A DNA stretch of 39,922 bases, from positions 40,688 to 80,609 of the forward strand of contig DUBU01000017.1 of assembly GCA_012960155.1 (NCBI GenBank). Direction: 5' to 3'. The number at the start of each line of letters is the position of its first letter. Position 1 is the first letter of the stretch. This DNA comes from Micavibrio sp. GTDB taxonomy: Bacteria; Pseudomonadota; Alphaproteobacteria; Micavibrionales; Micavibrionaceae. Below are positions 12,955 through 21,833 of the stretch, piece after piece. Under the pieces are notes generated by a model that had not been told where the DNA came from, did not search any database, and saw nothing but the letters and a program-made list of their open reading frames with translations. A program made the position numbers and the translations under genes.

Positions 12955-13560
12955 ATGTTTACAGGATTGATCAAAGACCTCGGCGAGGTTGTCAGCGTTG
13001 AAGATAGAAAAGGCTTGAAGCGTTTTCGCATTTCTACGCATCTGGGTGTCGAGAATATGGCGATTGGTGCGTCCATCGCGTGTAACGGCTGCTGTTTGAC
13101 GGTTGTCGATAAATCAGGCGGCGGTTTCGTCGTTGATGTATCCAATGAAACGCTCGAAAAAACAACGCTGGATAGCTGGCAAGAAGGCACGAAAATCAAT
13201 CTGGAGCCGTCATTGCGCCTCGGTGACGAAATGGGTGGCCACATTGTGTCTGGTCACGTTGATTGCACGGCAGTAGTTACGAAAATGGCGCGTGACGGCG
13301 AGTCATGGCGCATTACGATCGAAGTGCCGGAGGCCGTATCACCTTATATCGCGTCTAAAGGCTCTGTCGCATTGAACGGTATCTCGCTGACAGTCAACGA
13401 AGTGTCAGGTAATACATTCGGCGTAAACATCATTCCGCATACTTGGCAGGTCACTGATATCTCAGGCTGGGAAGAGGGTATGAAAATCAACCTTGAAGTC
13501 GATATGCTCGCACGCTATGTCGCTCGTATGACTGAGCGCGAGAAGGAATTGGCCGCATGA
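12955..13560 (+). CDS. ribE: riboflavin synthase alpha subunit
   Basis: Dismutates two 6,7-dimethyl-8-ribityllumazine molecules to riboflavin and the pyrimidine substrate of RibH. The product has the two lumazine-binding repeats: [12 protein letters not shown] with [12 protein letters not shown] in the first, and GHVDCTAVV with [14 protein letters not shown] in the second. 201 aa is the normal length. It overlaps ribB by 4 bp (ATGA). ribD, often first in such operons, is absent here. Confidence 0.95.
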
Positions 13561-14213
13561 CCGTATTAAAACCTGCAAATAGTAATGCTGATGAATCTGT
13601 TTTGGTGGATGTGGATGCCATTATCGCAGAGGCCGCAGCAGGTCGTATGTTCATTCTGGTCGACGACGAAGACCGTGAAAACGAAGGCGATCTAATCATT
13701 CCCGCAGATTGCGTGACCCCTGAAATTATCAATTTTATGGCCACTCATGGTCGTGGTTTGATCTGTCTGGCAATGGACGGTGATCTGATTGATCGTCTGG
13801 AATTGCCACAAATGGTGCGTCGCAATACAGATAAATTCGGCACGGCCTTTACGGTGTCTATTGAAGCACGCGAAGGTGTGACAACAGGTATTTCTGCCGC
13901 TGACCGCGCACATACGGTTAAAGTGGCAATCAGTGACACTGCGCAGGCCGATGATATTTCAACCCCTGGCCATGTATTTCCTATACGCGCGCAGGACGGA
14001 GGCGTACTGACACGTACAGGCCACACCGAAGCGGCTGTTGATATTGCAAAGCTGGCCGGTTTCAAAGGCGCAGCAGTGATTTGCGAAGTGATGAATGATG
14101 ACGGCACGATGGCGCGTTTGCCAGAGTTAATGGAATACGCCTCTAAATTCGGCATGAAAATCGGCAAAATTTGTGAATTAGTAGACTACAGGAAAGACGC
14201 AAAACATGACTAA
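13557..14213 (+). CDS. ribB: 3,4-dihydroxy-2-butanone-4-phosphate synthase
   Basis: Makes the four-carbon precursor of riboflavin from ribulose 5-phosphate. The active-site acidic loop [13 protein letters not shown] is at 35-47. The conserved [21 protein letters not shown] block is at about 138-158, with catalytic His139 and the phosphate-binding RTGHTEA. Length 218 aa matches a stand-alone DHBP synthase, so there is no fused GTP cyclohydrolase II domain, which must be supplied elsewhere. It overlaps ribE by 4 bp and ribH by 8 bp, giving a coupled ribE-ribB-ribH cassette. Confidence 0.96.
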
Positions 14214-14622
14214 GGTATTGGTAGTAGAAGCAAGATATTACAATCATATCAATGACTTCCTGTTGGAAGGCATTAAGGCCGAACTGGATGCCGTTGGCGC
14301 TGAGTTTGATGTTTTGACTGTCCCCGGTGCGTTGGAAATCCCATCCGCGGTCAGTTTTTCTCTGAATAAAGGCTATGACGCATTTGTTGTCGCAGGCTGT
14401 ATCATTCGCGGCGAAACAAGTCATTACGACATCGTGTGTAATGAAAGCGCACGCGGCGTATATGATCTAGTTCTTGCCTATGACCTGCCACTGGGTAATG
14501 CCATTCTGACGGTTGAAAACGAGGCTCAAGCGCTTGCCCGTGCCAAAACAGACCAGAAGAACAAAGGCGGTGAGGCAGCGAAAGCCGCTTTGCGTATGCT
14601 GGAGATCAAAAACGCGGCATAA
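14206..14622 (+). CDS. ribH: 6,7-dimethyl-8-ribityllumazine synthase
   Basis: Condenses the RibB product with the ribitylamino-pyrimidine to form lumazine, the substrate of RibE. Motifs are EARYYNHINDFLLEG (5-19), TVPGALEIPSAV (about 41-52), GCIIRGETSHYD with the catalytic His, and YDLPLGNAILTVEN. 138 aa is slightly short but complete. The ATG lies inside the end of ribB (8-bp overlap). No rho-independent terminator follows; the next structure is the hairpin at 14660-14692. Confidence 0.95.
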   Translation: MTKVLVVEARYYNHINDFLLEGIKAELDAVGAEFDVLTVPGALEIPSAVSFSLNKGYDAFVVAGCIIRGETSHYDIVCNESARGVYDLVLAYDLPLGNAILTVENEAQALARAKTDQKNKGGEAAKAALRMLEIKNAA

Positions 14623-15576: not shown

Positions 15577-16761
15577 ATGGTTTTCTGGCGCAAAAAGAAG
15601 AATGCGACGGAGCAGGAAAAGCAGGAACAGGAAGATAAGGTTATCCATCATCCTGAAGAGCCTGAAATAGAGCCGCCGACTGAATATGAAGCTGAGCTGA
15701 GCGAAGATCAGAAGCACGAAATTTTCGAAGAGACCGAAGAAGAGATTATCGAGGAGCTGGAAGAAACGCCGGTTCCCGAGATGACGCGCGAAATCATCGA
15801 AGAAGATGAAGAGCTGGACGTGCCTGAAGAAAAGCAGGGCTGGTTCTCGCGTATGACAGAAGGGCTGTCCAAGTCCTCGAACAAAATCACGCAAGGCCTG
15901 ACGGATCTCGTCACAAAGAAGAAGCTGGATCAGGATCTGCTGGACGAGTTGGAAGATCTGCTAATCACAGCGGATCTGGGCCCCAAGACAGCTGCCAAAA
16001 TTGTTGAAGAATTTGGTAAAGATCGCTTCGGAAAAGATATTTCCGAAGAAGAAATCAGACTTGCGCTGGCAGAGAGCATTGCCAATATTCTGACGCCAGT
16101 TGCGAAGCCACAAACATTTGAAAAGCGTGAAGACGGTAAGCCGTTTGTGACAATCGTAGTTGGCGTTAACGGCGTCGGAAAGACAACTACAATTGGTAAG
16201 GTCGCTCACGATCTGCAAATGACACAGAAACGCCCGACGATGATTGCGGCTGCCGATACGTTCCGCGCGGCCGCGATTGAACAGCTGGAAGTCTGGGCTA
16301 AGCGCGCTGGCTGCCCGTTTGTAAGTAAAGAGATTGGTTCTGACGCGGCTGCCGTGGCATTCGAAGCCTATGAAAAGGCGAAAGCAGAAGGTACGGAAGT
16401 GCTATTTATCGATACAGCAGGACGCCTTCATAACAAAGCTAACCTTATGGCAGAGCTTGAAAAGATTGTGCGCGTTTTGAAAAAGCAAGACGAAACTCTG
16501 CCGCATGCTGTGTTGTTGGTGCTCGATGCGACAACGGGCCAGAACGCATTTGAACAAGTCCGCATCTTCAAAGAGATGATGAACGTCACGGGTCTGATTG
16601 TCACAAAGCTAGACGGCAGCGCCAAAGGTGGTGTTGTTGTCGGTTTGGCAGATGAGTTCGGTTTGCCAATTCATATGATTGGTGTTGGTGAACAAATCGG
16701 TGACCTTCGTCCGTTCGATGCGCAAGACTTTGCAAACTCGTTAGTCGGGGCGAACAGCTAA
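15577..16761 (+). CDS. ftsY: SRP receptor GTPase FtsY
   Basis: Membrane-associated receptor for the signal recognition particle. It forms a GTPase heterodimer with Ffh and hands ribosomes to SecYEG. The first ~85 residues are a very acidic A domain (EEIIEELEETPVPEMTREII), typical of FtsY. The N domain (about 88-180) and G domain follow, with P-loop GVNGVGKTTT (196-205), AADTFRAAAIEQL (225-237), DTAGR (279-283), TKLDGSAKGG and a final GVGEQIGDLRPF. 394 aa is normal. AAGGAGGTC lies 7 bases from the ATG, among the best ribosome binding sites in the window. Its TAA overlaps the ATG of the ABC transporter by one base (TAATG). Confidence 0.98.
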   Translation: MVFWRKKKNATEQEKQEQEDKVIHHPEEPEIEPPTEYEAELSEDQKHEIFEETEEEIIEELEETPVPEMTREIIEEDEELDVPEEKQGWFSRMTEGLSKSSNKITQGLTDLVTKKKLDQDLLDELEDLLITADLGPKTAAKIVEEFGKDRFGKDISEEEIRLALAESIANILTPVAKPQTFEKREDGKPFVTIVVGVNGVGKTTTIGKVAHDLQMTQKRPTMIAAADTFRAAAIEQLEVWAKRAGCPFVSKEIGSDAAAVAFEAYEKAKAEGTEVLFIDTAGRLHNKANLMAELEKIVRVLKKQDETLPHAVLLVLDATTGQNAFEQVRIFKEMMNVTGLIVTKLDGSAKGGVVVGLADEFGLPIHMIGVGEQIGDLRPFDAQDFANSLVGANS

Positions 16762-18566
16762 TGATGGGCGGCGTGCTATCACAAAGGCCTGACGATCTGA
16801 TCATCAAACCATTTGCCTTTTACTGGAAATCATTCTGGCAGTTTCCGATACGTATGATGGCCATGCTGATCATGGAAATCATGCAGGCTTGTATGCTTGT
16901 GCTGCTGCCTTATGCCGTGAAAGATATTGTGACCGCTGCCGATAGCCATGATCCAGCGTTAGGCTCGGTTTGGAACAGCATTCATGACCCGTTCATGACT
17001 CTTGTCTGGCTGACAATCGGTATGGCAGTGTGTAGCCGTATCAGCGGGACTGTATTGCTGTTTGTTGCTCGCAATATCCGCCGTATGCCGCGTATCTGGC
17101 TGTTTGAACATCTTCTGAAACATAGCATGGAGTATTTCTCCAACCGCCATAGTGGTGCTTTAGGTGCCAAAATTCATGATGTAACGCACGGCATGGCCAT
17201 GGCAACCTGGACGCTGTTATTCGATTTTATCGGCTTGCTGATCTTGTTTGTGGCCAGTTCGGTAACGGTCGGCAGCGTGTATATGCCGCTCGGCGTTATG
17301 ATTTTTATCTGGGGTATGTTGTATGTGATTTTAATTTCGCTGCTGACCGTGCCACGCATTTACTGGATCGAGCGTGTATCTAAAGAGCGCGCCAATATCA
17401 CAGGCCGTATTATCGACTCGGTAGCTAATATCTTTTCGCTAAAAGCTTATGCCCATGCCAATTACGAGCAGAGCTTACTGACAGGGGTTATGAAACAGGA
17501 AGAAAGCGCCGTGCTGCGTTACGGCTTGTGGGGTGAGGCCATTCACTGGACGCACTTCATTCTGACATTTGCTCTGATTACAGGCAGTGTGTATTTCGCC
17601 GTTGAGACTTATGAGGCTGGCAAAATCGAGCTGGCAACAATCAGTTATTTGTTCACGCTAGTTCTGATCCTCAGCACCAATGCGCGCCATCTGACATGGA
17701 GCCTTCAGGCGTTCATGGAATATGTCGGACAAATCCGTGACGGTATTCATACGATTATGCGCGAGCATGAGATCGCCGATGAAAGCGATGCCAAGCCGCT
17801 TGAAATGCGTAAGGGCGAGATTAACTTCGATAGGGTCAGCTTTGGTTACAGCGGGCAGGGCGGCAAGTCCGTCATCGAGAATTTGAACCTGAATGTACCA
17901 TCAGGCCAAAAACTTGGTTTGGTGGGCTCTTCGGGCGCAGGGAAGTCTACACTTGTTAGCCTGCTGCTGCGTTTTTATGAAACGGATACAGGTAATATCA
18001 CTATCGATGGGCAAGATCTCTCGCGGATTACGCAGGACAGCTTGCGCGAAAACATCTCGGTTATCCCGCAGGATACTTCGCTATTTCACCGTTCGCTGGC
18101 AGATAATATTCGTTATGGTTGTCTGGACGCCACGGATGAGGACATTATCGATGCGGCGAAAAAAGCGCACGCCCATGACTTCATCAAGGATCTGCCCAAG
18201 GGGTATGAAACCATGGTTGGCGAGCGCGGCTTGAAACTCTCAGGCGGACAGCGTCAGCGTATTGCCATTGCCCGTGCCATATTGAAAAACGCCCCTATCT
18301 TGATTCTGGATGAGGCAACGTCCGCGCTCGATAGCGAAAGCGAGCAGTTAATTCAGGACAGCCTGTTCGAGCTTATGAAAGGCAAGACAGTGATTGCCAT
18401 TGCACACCGTCTGTCGACGATTGCCAAGCTAGATCGTTTGATTGTCATGGAGCAGGGGCGCATTGTCGAAGATGGGAACCATGAAGCTCTTCTGAAGTCC
18501 AAAGGTCATTACGCAAAGCTATGGGATATGCAGTCAGGCGGTTTCCTTGGTGATGAAACCGTTTAG
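16761..18566 (+). CDS. ABC transporter, fused permease/ATPase (exporter type)
   Basis: A half-transporter with an N-terminal transmembrane domain (hydrophobic segments near 33-52, 83-103, 152-168, 172-195, 266-283 and 294-306) and a C-terminal nucleotide-binding domain. The ATPase motifs are Walker A GSSGAGKST (389-397), Q-loop IPQDTSLFH, signature LSGGQRQRIAIARAI (493-507), Walker B ILILDE (513-518) and H-loop His549. It would act as a homodimer in the inner membrane, like MsbA or Atm1-type exporters; the substrate cannot be told. No Cys-rich or peptidase domain is fused. It is translationally coupled to ftsY. Confidence 0.9.
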   Translation: MMGGVLSQRPDDLIIKPFAFYWKSFWQFPIRMMAMLIMEIMQACMLVLLPYAVKDIVTAADSHDPALGSVWNSIHDPFMTLVWLTIGMAVCSRISGTVLLFVARNIRRMPRIWLFEHLLKHSMEYFSNRHSGALGAKIHDVTHGMAMATWTLLFDFIGLLILFVASSVTVGSVYMPLGVMIFIWGMLYVILISLLTVPRIYWIERVSKERANITGRIIDSVANIFSLKAYAHANYEQSLLTGVMKQEESAVLRYGLWGEAIHWTHFILTFALITGSVYFAVETYEAGKIELATISYLFTLVLILSTNARHLTWSLQAFMEYVGQIRDGIHTIMREHEIADESDAKPLEMRKGEINFDRVSFGYSGQGGKSVIENLNLNVPSGQKLGLVGSSGAGKSTLVSLLLRFYETDTGNITIDGQDLSRITQDSLRENISVIPQDTSLFHRSLADNIRYGCLDATDEDIIDAAKKAHAHDFIKDLPKGYETMVGERGLKLSGGQRQRIAIARAILKNAPILILDEATSALDSESEQLIQDSLFELMKGKTVIAIAHRLSTIAKLDRLIVMEQGRIVEDGNHEALLKSKGHYAKLWDMQSGGFLGDETV

Positions 18567-18604: not shown

Positions 18605-20134
18605 ATGGAAAAAATAAACATGATGAAACCACCAAAACAACAAAAGCCAAAATTATTCGATGACGCCAACGAGGCCTTCGCCTATATCAGTAAGCTTTAT
18701 ACCGAAAACGTAACATTTCTGCGCGAGAGCTTTGAGCAGTTCACAAGCACGGGCGTGATCCCGAAAGAGCGTATCCGCGCCTGCTATCCGTACATAAAAA
18801 TAGAAACCAAAAATGCACGCCGCAAGGACTCGCGCCTTTCATATGGTTTTGTGTCTAAGCCCGGCAGTTACCAGACAACGGTAACGCGCCCGATTGATAT
18901 TTTTGATCAATATCTGAAAGAGCAAATCTCGCAACTGATTATAAACCATGATCAGTCAGTCGAGATTGGAGTCAGTGATACGCCCATTCCAATTCACTTT
19001 GCGTTGGGTGAGAATTATCACCTTGAGGCTGATTTAACACCAGAGCAGCTCGCGGATGTTTCATCGTTCTTTGATCAACCTGATCTGGACTTGATGGATG
19101 ATACAATCGCAAACGGTACGCATGTTTATGCGCCGCATCAGACAGAGCCCCTTGCCTTGTTTACAGCACCGCGTATTGATTTGAGTTTGATGCGTTTGAA
19201 GCACTACACAGCCACAGATGCTGTGCACTTTCAAAACTACGTCATCTTTACGAACTACCAGTTCTATATCGACGAGTTTATCAAGATTTGCCGTGATATT
19301 ATGGCGCCGACAGATAACCCGTCATTAAAGCGTGAGCGTCAGGAATACTCTTCCTTTGTCGAGCCCGGCAATAAAATTACGGTCAATAAGAACGTCGCCG
19401 ATCTGGATGAGAAGGATGCTTTAGGTATTGAGTTAAGCCGTATGCCGCAAATGCCTGCATACCACCTGAAGCGTCCTGACGGTTCAGGCATTACCATGGT
19501 CAATATTGGTGTAGGCCCGTCAAATGCCAAAAATATTACAGACCATATCGCCGTCTTGCGTCCACACGCTTGGCTGATGCTGGGGCATTGCGCGGGCCTT
19601 AGAAACTCGCAAAAGCTCGGTGACTATGTGCTCGCCCATGGTTACTTGCGGGAAGACAACGTGCTGTACCGTGATTTGCATCCCTCCATTCCTGTGCCCG
19701 CACTCGCAGAAATTCAGCAAGCGCTTGAAGAGGCTGTTGCAAGAGTGACAGGCCATGAGGGCTACGATCTTAAGATGATTATGCGTACAGGTACTGTAGC
19801 GACTGTCGATGACCGTAACTGGGAACTGCGTCAGGCTATTCGCCAGAATATCCGTCTATCACAAAGCCGCGCTATTGCACTCGATATGGAATCGGGTACG
19901 GTCGCCGCAAACGGCTTCCGTTTCCGTGTTCCTTATGGGACGCTGCTATGTGTGTCTGATAAGCCGCTGCATGGCCAGTTGAAATTGCCGGGGATGGCGG
20001 AAAGCTTCTATCGTCAGCGCGTTGAACAGCACCTGCAAATTGGTCTTCTGACGATGTCGCTATTACGTGATATTGGCCCTGAAAAACTGCATAGCCGTAA
20101 GCTGCGCAGCTTCAACGAAGCCGCATTCCAGTAA
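18605..20134 (+). CDS. amn: AMP nucleosidase
   Basis: Hydrolyses AMP to adenine and ribose 5-phosphate in the cytoplasm, a purine-salvage and AMP-level control enzyme. The N-terminal AMP nucleosidase domain (FDDANEAFAYISKLYTENV, about 18-36) is followed by a nucleoside-phosphorylase-like domain. That has MVNIGVGPSNAKNITDHIAVLRP, MLGHCAGLR and the substrate-binding ALDMESGTVAANG (from residue 425, with E429), then LCVSDKPLHGQLKLPG. 509 aa is slightly longer than E. coli Amn (484). The start is uncertain: ATGs occur at 18605, 18620 and 18623 with no clear Shine-Dalgarno. It ends exactly where the convergent 20135 gene ends (no gap). Confidence 0.94.
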   Translation: MEKINMMKPPKQQKPKLFDDANEAFAYISKLYTENVTFLRESFEQFTSTGVIPKERIRACYPYIKIETKNARRKDSRLSYGFVSKPGSYQTTVTRPIDIFDQYLKEQISQLIINHDQSVEIGVSDTPIPIHFALGENYHLEADLTPEQLADVSSFFDQPDLDLMDDTIANGTHVYAPHQTEPLALFTAPRIDLSLMRLKHYTATDAVHFQNYVIFTNYQFYIDEFIKICRDIMAPTDNPSLKRERQEYSSFVEPGNKITVNKNVADLDEKDALGIELSRMPQMPAYHLKRPDGSGITMVNIGVGPSNAKNITDHIAVLRPHAWLMLGHCAGLRNSQKLGDYVLAHGYLREDNVLYRDLHPSIPVPALAEIQQALEEAVARVTGHEGYDLKMIMRTGTVATVDDRNWELRQAIRQNIRLSQSRAIALDMESGTVAANGFRFRVPYGTLLCVSDKPLHGQLKLPGMAESFYRQRVEQHLQIGLLTMSLLRDIGPEKLHSRKLRSFNEAAFQ

Positions 20135-20656
20135 TTAGGGCTGAGCTGACAGTGTTAGCGTGACAGCCATACCGTCTGTAAGGGCATGTTTATCGCGAAG
20201 CTTTATATCGGACATAACTTCTACGACGTTATAATAGGCGGAGCCTATGCGGCGTGCCGCCCATGCATCAAAGATCTTTCCACTCTCATCTAACTGTATA
20301 GTCGCAGGCCAAAAATGCATTGTGCCGCGATTAGGCGCATTGCTTGTTGGTCTCAGCATATTGTTGCCAATAGCATCATGGGCAATAGTAAATGATGATT
20401 TTAAAATGCCTCTATCAAGGTCTTGTATGTCCCGTATGCCTTTAGGAAAGCCGTTGCTGGCTATGTTGATATTTAATGATCCTGGGTGAAACTCTGCCGG
20501 TAGAGCATCAGGGGCATTCTTGATACCTGATTTCGGGGGAAAGGTCATGTCACTATAACAGCCCATGCCTGATGCAATCTCTCCTTTAAAGACTAGGGAT
20601 AGATTCTTGCTGCCGCGCAGCCTCGCAATTGTGCTTCCAATACCAAATAGCTTCAT
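20135..20656 (-). CDS. DUF120 / CTP-dependent riboflavin kinase-like protein
   Basis: The 173-residue product resembles the archaeal CTP-dependent riboflavin kinase family (DUF120, e.g. M. jannaschii MJ0056), from memory of that family. Matches in order are FKGEIASGMGCYSDMTFPP (23-41), which fits the archaeal G-E-V-x-S-G-x-G nucleotide loop; HPGSLNINIA (57-66), which fits P-x-x-G-T-L-N, with Ser for the metal-binding Thr and the Asn kept; and a C-terminal block YYNVVEVMSDIKLRDKHALTDG then V-T-L-T-L, matching the archaeal I-E-I-I-A-P-x-K-L-R-E-x-x-x-L-x-D-G. A 10-15 residue insertion lies mid-protein. The ATG at 20656 lacks a ribosome binding site; a TTG at 20692 is the alternative. It is probably co-transcribed with kynA (44-base gap). 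Kinase activity is not assured. Confidence 0.7.
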   Translation of the reverse strand: MKLFGIGSTIARLRGSKNLSLVFKGEIASGMGCYSDMTFPPKSGIKNAPDALPAEFHPGSLNINIASNGFPKGIRDIQDLDRGILKSSFTIAHDAIGNNMLRPTSNAPNRGTMHFWPATIQLDESGKIFDAWAARRIGSAYYNVVEVMSDIKLRDKHALTDGMAVTLTLSAQP

Positions 20657-20700: not shown

Positions 20701-21762
20701 TCAGGCTGCCTTGGTATAGCCGTAGGTCATAGTATCTTTTAATTGTTGCGGCAGTGCAGGGAGTGCATCACTAGGAATGATGTAGCTGGACAATGAGAAT
20801 AGATCATTGAAGATACGGTGTTTCTGCACAGTATCCATCAAATAATTATAACCTGATGATCCGCCCGTACCAGCACCCATACCAACCATACGCTGAACTA
20901 GTAGAGCATGGCGGTATCGCCATTGCGCAATCAAGGCATCTACATCAATGATATGTTGAAGCAATCTGTAGGGCCCCTGTAGAACGGGCTCTTCACGGTA
21001 AATGGTAATGAACAAAGCGGCTTGCAGAGCAGGGGCGCTCATGCGCCAGAGCCCATCTTTAATAGCCTGATCATGCTTGTCTGCATCAAAGATACTTTCG
21101 AACTTTGCTTTGCCGCGTGTAATGTCATCAGCGCTTACGCCGTGTTGAGCGCTTTGATCTAGCATGTTGTGAACGGCTTGGCGATATTGTTCAGTAAATT
21201 TGTAATCTTGCCAGTCAACGAACGGTGTACGAGACAGCCAAGTATCAATTTGATCGTAAAGGCTGGCTGAACCCTCGGCATCATTAAAGGCCTTACGACT
21301 CTCGGCACGCAAATCTTCGTCAAACTCACCGCCGAATACAGGAATACGATCTTCGCGGCGCAGGCCTAAGCGTAATTCAATGAGACGGAATTGCCAGCTT
21401 TGAAAACCCGAGGCAGTACCAAGATAGCGGCGGAAATCTAAAAAGCTCTGTGGCGGCATGGTTTCCAGCACATCCATCATGCCAACCAGATTGCGGAATA
21501 TTTTCTCGATACGGCCCAGATAGGTCAGGATCGGTTGCATATCACGGTCATCTACAACATTGCTGGAGAAGCGGCGCTGAATATCATCAAGCTCGAACAA
21601 GATTTGTTTGAACCACAGCTCGTAAACCTGGTGAAATATGATGAACAACATCTCGTCATGCACAGGATTACCTTCTTCGGCGCTGCGCATTTTTTGAGCG
21701 GTCAGGATTTTGTCCAGCCCCTCATACTCGTGATATTGATCCCAATTTGTTTTCCCTGTCAT
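20701..21762 (-). CDS. kynA: tryptophan 2,3-dioxygenase
   Basis: Haem enzyme that opens the indole ring of tryptophan to N-formylkynurenine, the first step of the kynurenine route. NWDQYHEYEGLDKIL (6-20) is the family N-terminus. H44 in FHQVYELWFKQ is the distal substrate-binding His. SGFQSWQFRLIEL (118-130) is conserved. H285 (WRYRHALLVQRM) fits the haem-ligating His, followed by GTGGSSGYNYL. The 353-aa length matches the longer form of the family. The start was set at ATG 21762 because the longer frame opens with a TTG (21804) inside a terminator hairpin. No other kyn gene is nearby; the DUF120-like gene follows on the same transcript. Confidence 0.93.
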   Translation of the reverse strand: MTGKTNWDQYHEYEGLDKILTAQKMRSAEEGNPVHDEMLFIIFHQVYELWFKQILFELDDIQRRFSSNVVDDRDMQPILTYLGRIEKIFRNLVGMMDVLETMPPQSFLDFRRYLGTASGFQSWQFRLIELRLGLRREDRIPVFGGEFDEDLRAESRKAFNDAEGSASLYDQIDTWLSRTPFVDWQDYKFTEQYRQAVHNMLDQSAQHGVSADDITRGKAKFESIFDADKHDQAIKDGLWRMSAPALQAALFITIYREEPVLQGPYRLLQHIIDVDALIAQWRYRHALLVQRMVGMGAGTGGSSGYNYLMDTVQKHRIFNDLFSLSSYIIPSDALPALPQQLKDTMTYGYTKAA

Positions 21763-21802
21763 GTCAGGAAGATTATCGGCAGTTAGTAAGGATGTCCATA
21801 AC

Positions 21803-21833
21803 AAAACGGCGCCTTCATTAAAGACGCCGTTTT
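21803..21833 (-). terminator. rho-independent terminator
   Basis: Nine-base perfect stem AAAACGGCG (21803-21811) and CGCCGTTTT (21825-21833), 13-base loop, ending in TTTTG on either strand. It lies between the Gln-rich gene (21862-22173) and kynA and most likely ends the former. Confidence 0.75.

Follow-up and report, generated by a model that had tools for sequence, protein, structure and literature searches.

A small gene of the alphaproteobacterium Micavibrio sp. encodes a protein that is genuinely homologous to the archaeal CTP-dependent riboflavin kinases (PF01982/DUF120) but has diverged from them. These enzymes are usually regarded as the archaeal counterpart of RibF. The gene lies within a stretch of 39,922 nucleotides, the whole of which was analysed and is referred to here as the window. 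We place its product in a divergent bacterial branch that is sister to the archaeal enzymes, and do not call it a CTP-dependent riboflavin kinase, since hallmarks of that enzyme were looked for and found to be lost. Our preferred explanation, to which we give about an even chance, is that this side branch consists of altered kinases whose phosphate donor, acceptor, or both are probably not CTP and riboflavin.

An earlier note made from the sequence alone had proposed an open reading frame at this position and left its strand unstated. The reading frame exists and lies on the minus strand (Table 1). Read on the plus strand, 20135-20656 contains many stops, while the minus strand is open from the ATG through to 20135. 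An earlier start at TTG 20692 is possible. Inspection by eye revealed no obvious Shine-Dalgarno sequence before either start codon. That the frame is coding is supported by homologues along its full length; 27 columns are invariant across a seven-row alignment of members from the host's order. The three motif blocks named in the earlier note are present and run in archaeal order, with the first at residues 25-32 instead of 23-32. The C-terminal block reads K-L-R-D-K-H-A-L-T-D-G (residues 152-162).

Table 1. Positions of the DUF120-like gene, its motifs, and neighboring genes within the window.
Feature	Position	Strand	Details and basis
DUF120-like gene	20135..20656	minus	173 aa, ATG at 20656; translation, homologues, profile, profile-profile and fold matches
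Nucleotide loop G-E-I-A-S-G-M-G	residues 25-32, 20561..20584	minus	alignment; GxG kept, following archaeal E-G-R lost
Presumed metal loop P-G-S-L-N	residues 58-62, 20471..20485	minus	archaeal counterpart G-T-L-N
Clade-specific insertion with I-G-N-N motif	within residues 87-110, 20327..20398	minus	alignment; borders approximate
Arg-Arg	residues 135-136, 20249..20254	minus	site of the P-x-x-T segment in archaeal enzymes
Glu146, Leu153-Arg154 and K-L-R-x4-L-x-D-G block	residues 146-162, 20171..20221	minus	equivalent to MJ0056 Glu107, Leu114-Arg115
kynA, tryptophan 2,3-dioxygenase	20701..21804	minus	PF03301 308 bits; 44 bp upstream of the DUF120-like gene
amn, AMP nucleosidase	18605..20134	plus	NF006142 712.8 bits, PF10423 169 bits; convergent with and abutting the DUF120-like gene
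ribE-ribB-ribH	12955-14622		5.5 kb away; named by inspection

Searched as a single sequence, the window protein scored 18 bits against PF01982, below the curated cut-off of 25, with the best stretch confined to residues 140-168. PF01982 was the only profile matched in a Pfam scan at E up to 10. The NCBIfam riboflavin kinase models scored far below their cut-offs, and a phmmer search of the PDB did not return the archaeal kinases (best E 0.14, weak matches to beta-2-microglobulins). Comparisons at the level of the family were far clearer. A profile of seven members searched against 177,635 PDB sequences had its best match in 3cta (Thermoplasma RbkR; E 3.3e-7) and also matched 2p3m (MJ0056; E 0.0017). 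HHalign aligned the seven-member family with two archaeal kinases at E 1.3e-6 (probability 90.5), whereas the control alignment with the RibF kinase domain of three carriers gave E 0.43 (probability 0.1). The PF01982 cut-off was passed by three of nine bacterial members (28.9, 25.6, and 25.5 bits; the others 13.4-20.9). All seven members from the host's order matched the profile at E up to 1 (13.4-25.5 bits; one above the cut-off). The profile check proposed in the earlier note thus failed for the single sequence, but the family profile, HHalign, and the three passing members overrule that sub-cut-off score. Together with the predicted fold, the family profile and HHalign support the note's claim of a DUF120 homologue in a bacterium, and the bacterial host was upheld.

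An AlphaFold2 model of the window protein, built from the seven-row alignment, had a mean pLDDT of 84.3 and a pTM of 0.79. In a Foldseek search, the first seven PDB chains were archaeal riboflavin kinases (best E 2.9e-5), with the next, unrelated chain at E 0.04. Structural alignment with VIA-align was likewise led by seven archaeal riboflavin kinase entries (Z 8.3-11.7; next row 6.2). A relative with 31% identity to the window protein (L014) was modelled at lower confidence (pLDDT 74.1), and archaeal riboflavin kinases again came first by Foldseek (E 6.8e-5 to 0.018) and by structural alignment (Z 6.6-9.6; next row 5.8). The earlier note had expected a RIFT-type barrel and would have given way to any other fold. 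Both predicted models match the cradle-loop barrel of MJ0056 and RbkR. On these models, the window protein is predicted to be a single-domain cradle-loop (RIFT-type) barrel, preceded by approximately 18 residues.

Residues were counted in an alignment of nine bacterial proteins with MJ0056. G14, G16, G42, N45, D64, E107, L114, R115, and L120 of MJ0056 are identical in all nine bacterial sequences. T43 is replaced by Ser in every one of them, which extends the Thr-to-Ser change of the earlier note to 9/9. We take T43 and N45 to be metal ligands, residues 14-19 and 112-115 to be CDP contacts, and T99 and E107 to be FMN contacts, T99 being the flavin contact within P-x-x-T. The presumed phosphoryl-transfer core (GxG, G-S/T-x-N, Glu, and Leu-Arg) is thus kept in 9/9.

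Other parts of the archaeal active site are not kept. Within the G-x-G-E-G-R nucleotide loop, GxG is present in 9/9, E17 and G18 in none, and R19 in two. The P-x-x-T segment before the Glu is also lost, with P96 and T99 found in 0/9, in a placement that depends on the alignment. E-G-R and P-x-x-T are invariant between MJ0056 and Ta1064, and it is these two sequences that define archaeal conservation here. Arg135-Arg136, at the P-x-x-T site, is invariant across the order members. The mid-protein insertion of the earlier note is real and common to 8/9 bacterial members: it measures approximately 20 aa, has the consensus IPxxxIGNNxLxPxxxNPxRG, and is missing from the protein of the alphaproteobacterium G637. 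Between N45 and E107 the alignment is uncertain, as two alignments place part of this region differently against the insertion.

The earlier note had suggested looking for ribF in the same genome. The host genome (2.58 Mb, 99.6% complete) carries a canonical RibF (PF01687, 138 bits) as its sole PF01687 match, on another contig (C16). Likewise, a PF01687 flavokinase scored above cut-off in all eight carrier genomes searched (134-146 bits). For Ochrobactrum the search covered a megaplasmid record, in which no PF01687 match was found. No PF01687 match was found in the window protein by Pfam scan. As the host has a canonical RibF, the window gene is not a RibF replacement, and the presence of RibF suggests that this relative probably phosphorylates something other than riboflavin.

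Carriers are sporadic. Within the host's order, the gene was found in 7 of 142 genomes searched, representing five genera, and the homologues of the six further carrier genomes were found at 35-46% identity. An eighth match in the order (G081; 20.7 bits, profile positions 89-137) was discarded: it is short and local and falls in a small protein of another kind. The 1-Mb megaplasmid of Ochrobactrum quorumnocens encodes a relative with 34% identity over 95% (E 3e-16; PF01982 25.6 bits). This plasmid gene (L024:11989-12519) adjoins a PF03407 nucleotide-sugar transferase-like gene (26.7 bits). A second, more archaeal-like DUF120 gene (28.9 bits), the one lacking the insertion, was seen in G637 (L025:9761-10312). 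Its product bears a basic, aromatic C-terminal extension, and the gene sits beside a uppP-like gene. Among 198 genomes of G637's family there was no carrier besides G637. A 385-genome sample of the class gave no further carrier, and a 398-genome sample of the phylum gave only G637 and the window's genome. PF01982 was found in four of 14 control genomes, all four of them archaea.

Wider searches added little. A genome contig collection gave no match to a single-sequence scan, and an alignment-based scan returned six loci, apparently those of carriers already found. No relative was found in a viral contig collection. Against a phage collection, tblastn with the window, G637, and G015 proteins and MJ0056 as queries gave no match or E 0.8 only. 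Five proteins searched against PHROGs gave nothing better than E 0.056. A literature search, thin on subscription papers, found no bacterial version beyond a cyanophage gene list. In a maximum-likelihood tree of 11 rows, two of eight inner branches were well supported; being mostly unresolved, the tree does not show the direction of transfer. The GC content of the window gene is 46.4% and its GC3 of 0.43 is the lowest of 11 window genes (the ten others 0.44-0.57). These values are close to those of its neighbors, such that recent transfer is neither supported nor excluded. We infer that the gene is mobile and has spread horizontally.

The earlier note had placed the gene on the same transcript as kynA. 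No terminator-like site was found on the minus strand between 20000 and 22300, which, with the shared strand and the 44 bp gap, makes co-transcription plausible. We could not support a meaning for this linkage: the arrangement is absent from the same-genus genome G002, and the gene's neighbors differ in other carriers. In G002, kynA and amn are convergent, with 2 bp between their stop codons and no gene between them. G003 has a different gene after amn, and the G001 contig comes to an end; a homologue was found in neither genome. Since the kynA-amn slot is empty in G002, we regard the slot as variable and the window gene as an additional ORF within it; the gene's link to kynA is probably incidental. 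The window's kynA is itself divergent (TIGR03036, an NCBIfam equivalog, 171 bits versus a cut-off of 390.7). In G003 its place beside amn is taken by a 469-aa gene (L034:2584-3990) that resembles tryptophanase/tyrosine phenol-lyase by inspection. Two different tryptophan-degrading genes, kynA and the tryptophanase-like gene, thus occupy one slot.

Nor could we support a meaning for the linkage to ribE-ribB-ribH, which the earlier note had placed 6 kb away, as the gene has other neighbors in other carriers. No rib linkage was seen in the flanks of those carriers, and the window held no match to Rfam families, FMN riboswitches among them. The idea of a flavin regulon was dropped on these two grounds. 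A defence role was likewise rejected: PADLOC returned nothing for the window protein, and among seven members a single one matched, weakly (E 0.019).

Across the carrier flanks examined, there was no shared operon or conserved neighbor pointing to a substrate. The order topA, the gene, and a convergent MsbA-like ABC exporter is shared by three genomes from a single genus (L009, L011, and L014). In G099 (L010), an ABC exporter and then the gene lie on one strand. The gene is next to rpsD and an RNA-methyltransferase-like gene in G015, and has unrelated neighbors in G068. These neighbors were named by inspection, the ABC genes also by their similarity to the window's ABC gene. An MsbA-like ABC exporter directly adjoins the kinase-like gene in two arrangements (L009/L011/L014 and L010), and the window's own ABC gene (16761-18566) lies one gene away. 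Genomes contain 6 to 10 PF00664 matches each, and the adjacency was noticed post hoc; we treat it as a lead only.

In an altered kinase, the GxG loop would hold an NTP, and its phosphate would be passed to a small hydroxyl acceptor. The Ser/Asn metal site would serve this chemistry together with Glu146 and Arg154. Loss of E-G-R and P-x-x-T and gain of Arg-Arg and the IGNN insertion would have remodelled the nucleotide loop and acceptor pocket. It is this remodelling that makes CTP and riboflavin improbable as donor and/or acceptor. For the window protein itself, we infer both catalysis and a changed substrate. The alternatives offered in the earlier note, an altered kinase or a flavin/nucleotide-binding relative in a new role, were right in outline.

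A genuine second riboflavin kinase that uses CTP or another NTP and works alongside RibF, for instance when conditions differ or to supply FMN but no FAD, is an unlikely though serious alternative. In its favor, every one of the nearest solved relatives is a riboflavin kinase, all nine sequences retain the presumed catalytic core, and riboflavin-synthesis genes (by inspection) are present in the window; against this stand the canonical RibF of every carrier genome searched, the lost E-G-R loop and P-x-x-T, and the missing rib linkage and Rfam match. We regard it as improbable that the protein merely binds a nucleotide or flavin, as a sensor or carrier of the same fold. Such a protein would not need the metal-site Asn, the Glu, and the Leu-Arg that persist in 9/9 despite low identity, and Pfam scans revealed no RbkR-like N-terminal winged helix, even though the nucleotide loop keeps only half of its archaeal form, the distribution is sporadic, and the fold relatives include DNA-binding regulators (one of ten members scanned was weakly AbrB-type, E 0.031). 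A fortuitous resemblance of motifs in an ORF that is unrelated or non-coding could have explained the single-sequence Pfam score (18 versus 25 bits) and the failure of phmmer to find the kinases in the PDB. The full-length homologues with their invariant columns, the concordant profile, profile-profile, and fold evidence, and the lack of similarity in the RibF control leave this explanation effectively refuted, with almost no probability. If the altered-kinase explanation is true, a bacterial branch with the presumed phosphoryl-transfer core retained, RibF alongside it, and the pocket remodelled would mean that kinases of further molecules have also arisen from the archaeal riboflavin-kinase fold.

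An apparent core swap was seen at the topA locus. Of three pairs compared there, G036 (L014) and G071 (L011) have the most similar flanking DNA (82%, 80%), and 17 of 25 aa are identical in their C-terminal tails. Their enzyme cores, in contrast, are only 40% identical, versus 64% between G036 and G068 (L013), which belongs to another genus. The simplest reading of these sequences is that the G036 core was replaced in place, with the resident tail and flanking genes retained. This argument is made on protein figures; the gapped nucleotide figure for the core (L011-L014, 75%) does not show the swap. The genes compared lie at L014:6004-6609, L011:6001-6558, and L013:1197-1781.

Helical-moment tests of the termini gave shuffle p < 0.025 in 3 of 10 cases (0.0016, 0.011, and 0.023; uncorrected), with p 0.35 for the N-terminus of the window protein. 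The tests are weak overall, and a membrane tether is a lead only. The retained tail in G036 and the direct MsbA-like ABC exporter, uppP-like, and glycosyltransferase-like neighbors nevertheless point to a doubtful, more specific reading: a bacterial family of kinases on the archaeal riboflavin-kinase barrel that would use a new acceptor, be tethered to the inner membrane through a short amphipathic tail, and act on a small molecule that is membrane-linked or exported. It is similarly doubtful that this tail would be C-terminal in some members and perhaps N-terminal in others.

Among known systems, a DUF120 gene is listed in five cyanophage genomes, i.e. outside archaea (PMC3037559, 2010). As far as that list goes, the likeness lies in the domain name, and tblastn with our four queries did not recover the sequence. 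RibF, the ATP-dependent flavokinase/FAD synthetase (PF01687), showed no profile similarity to the family in the HHalign control, and the Thermotoga FAD synthetase was among the background fold matches (Z 5.7). MJ0056 (RibK) of Methanocaldococcus jannaschii is much closer. Like the window protein, it consists of a single catalytic domain, and the predicted fold resembles it (2vbv; Z 11.6, rmsd 4.4, 129 aligned, 18% identity). The two share equivalents of GxG, G-(S/T)-x-N, Glu107, and Leu114-Arg115. The window protein differs in having no E-G-R and no P-x-x-T, Ser in place of Thr43, the insertion of about 20 aa, and a bacterial host that also carries RibF. RbkR (Ta1064) of Thermoplasma acidophilum combines the kinase with a DNA-binding domain, whereas the window protein has no winged-helix match in the short segment before its barrel and differs by the same loop and P-x-x-T losses. 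RbkR is nevertheless the closest of these systems in predicted structure, with 5trd the best fold match of the window model (Z 11.7, rmsd 3.3, 131 aligned, 21% identity) and 3cta the best PDB match of the family profile.
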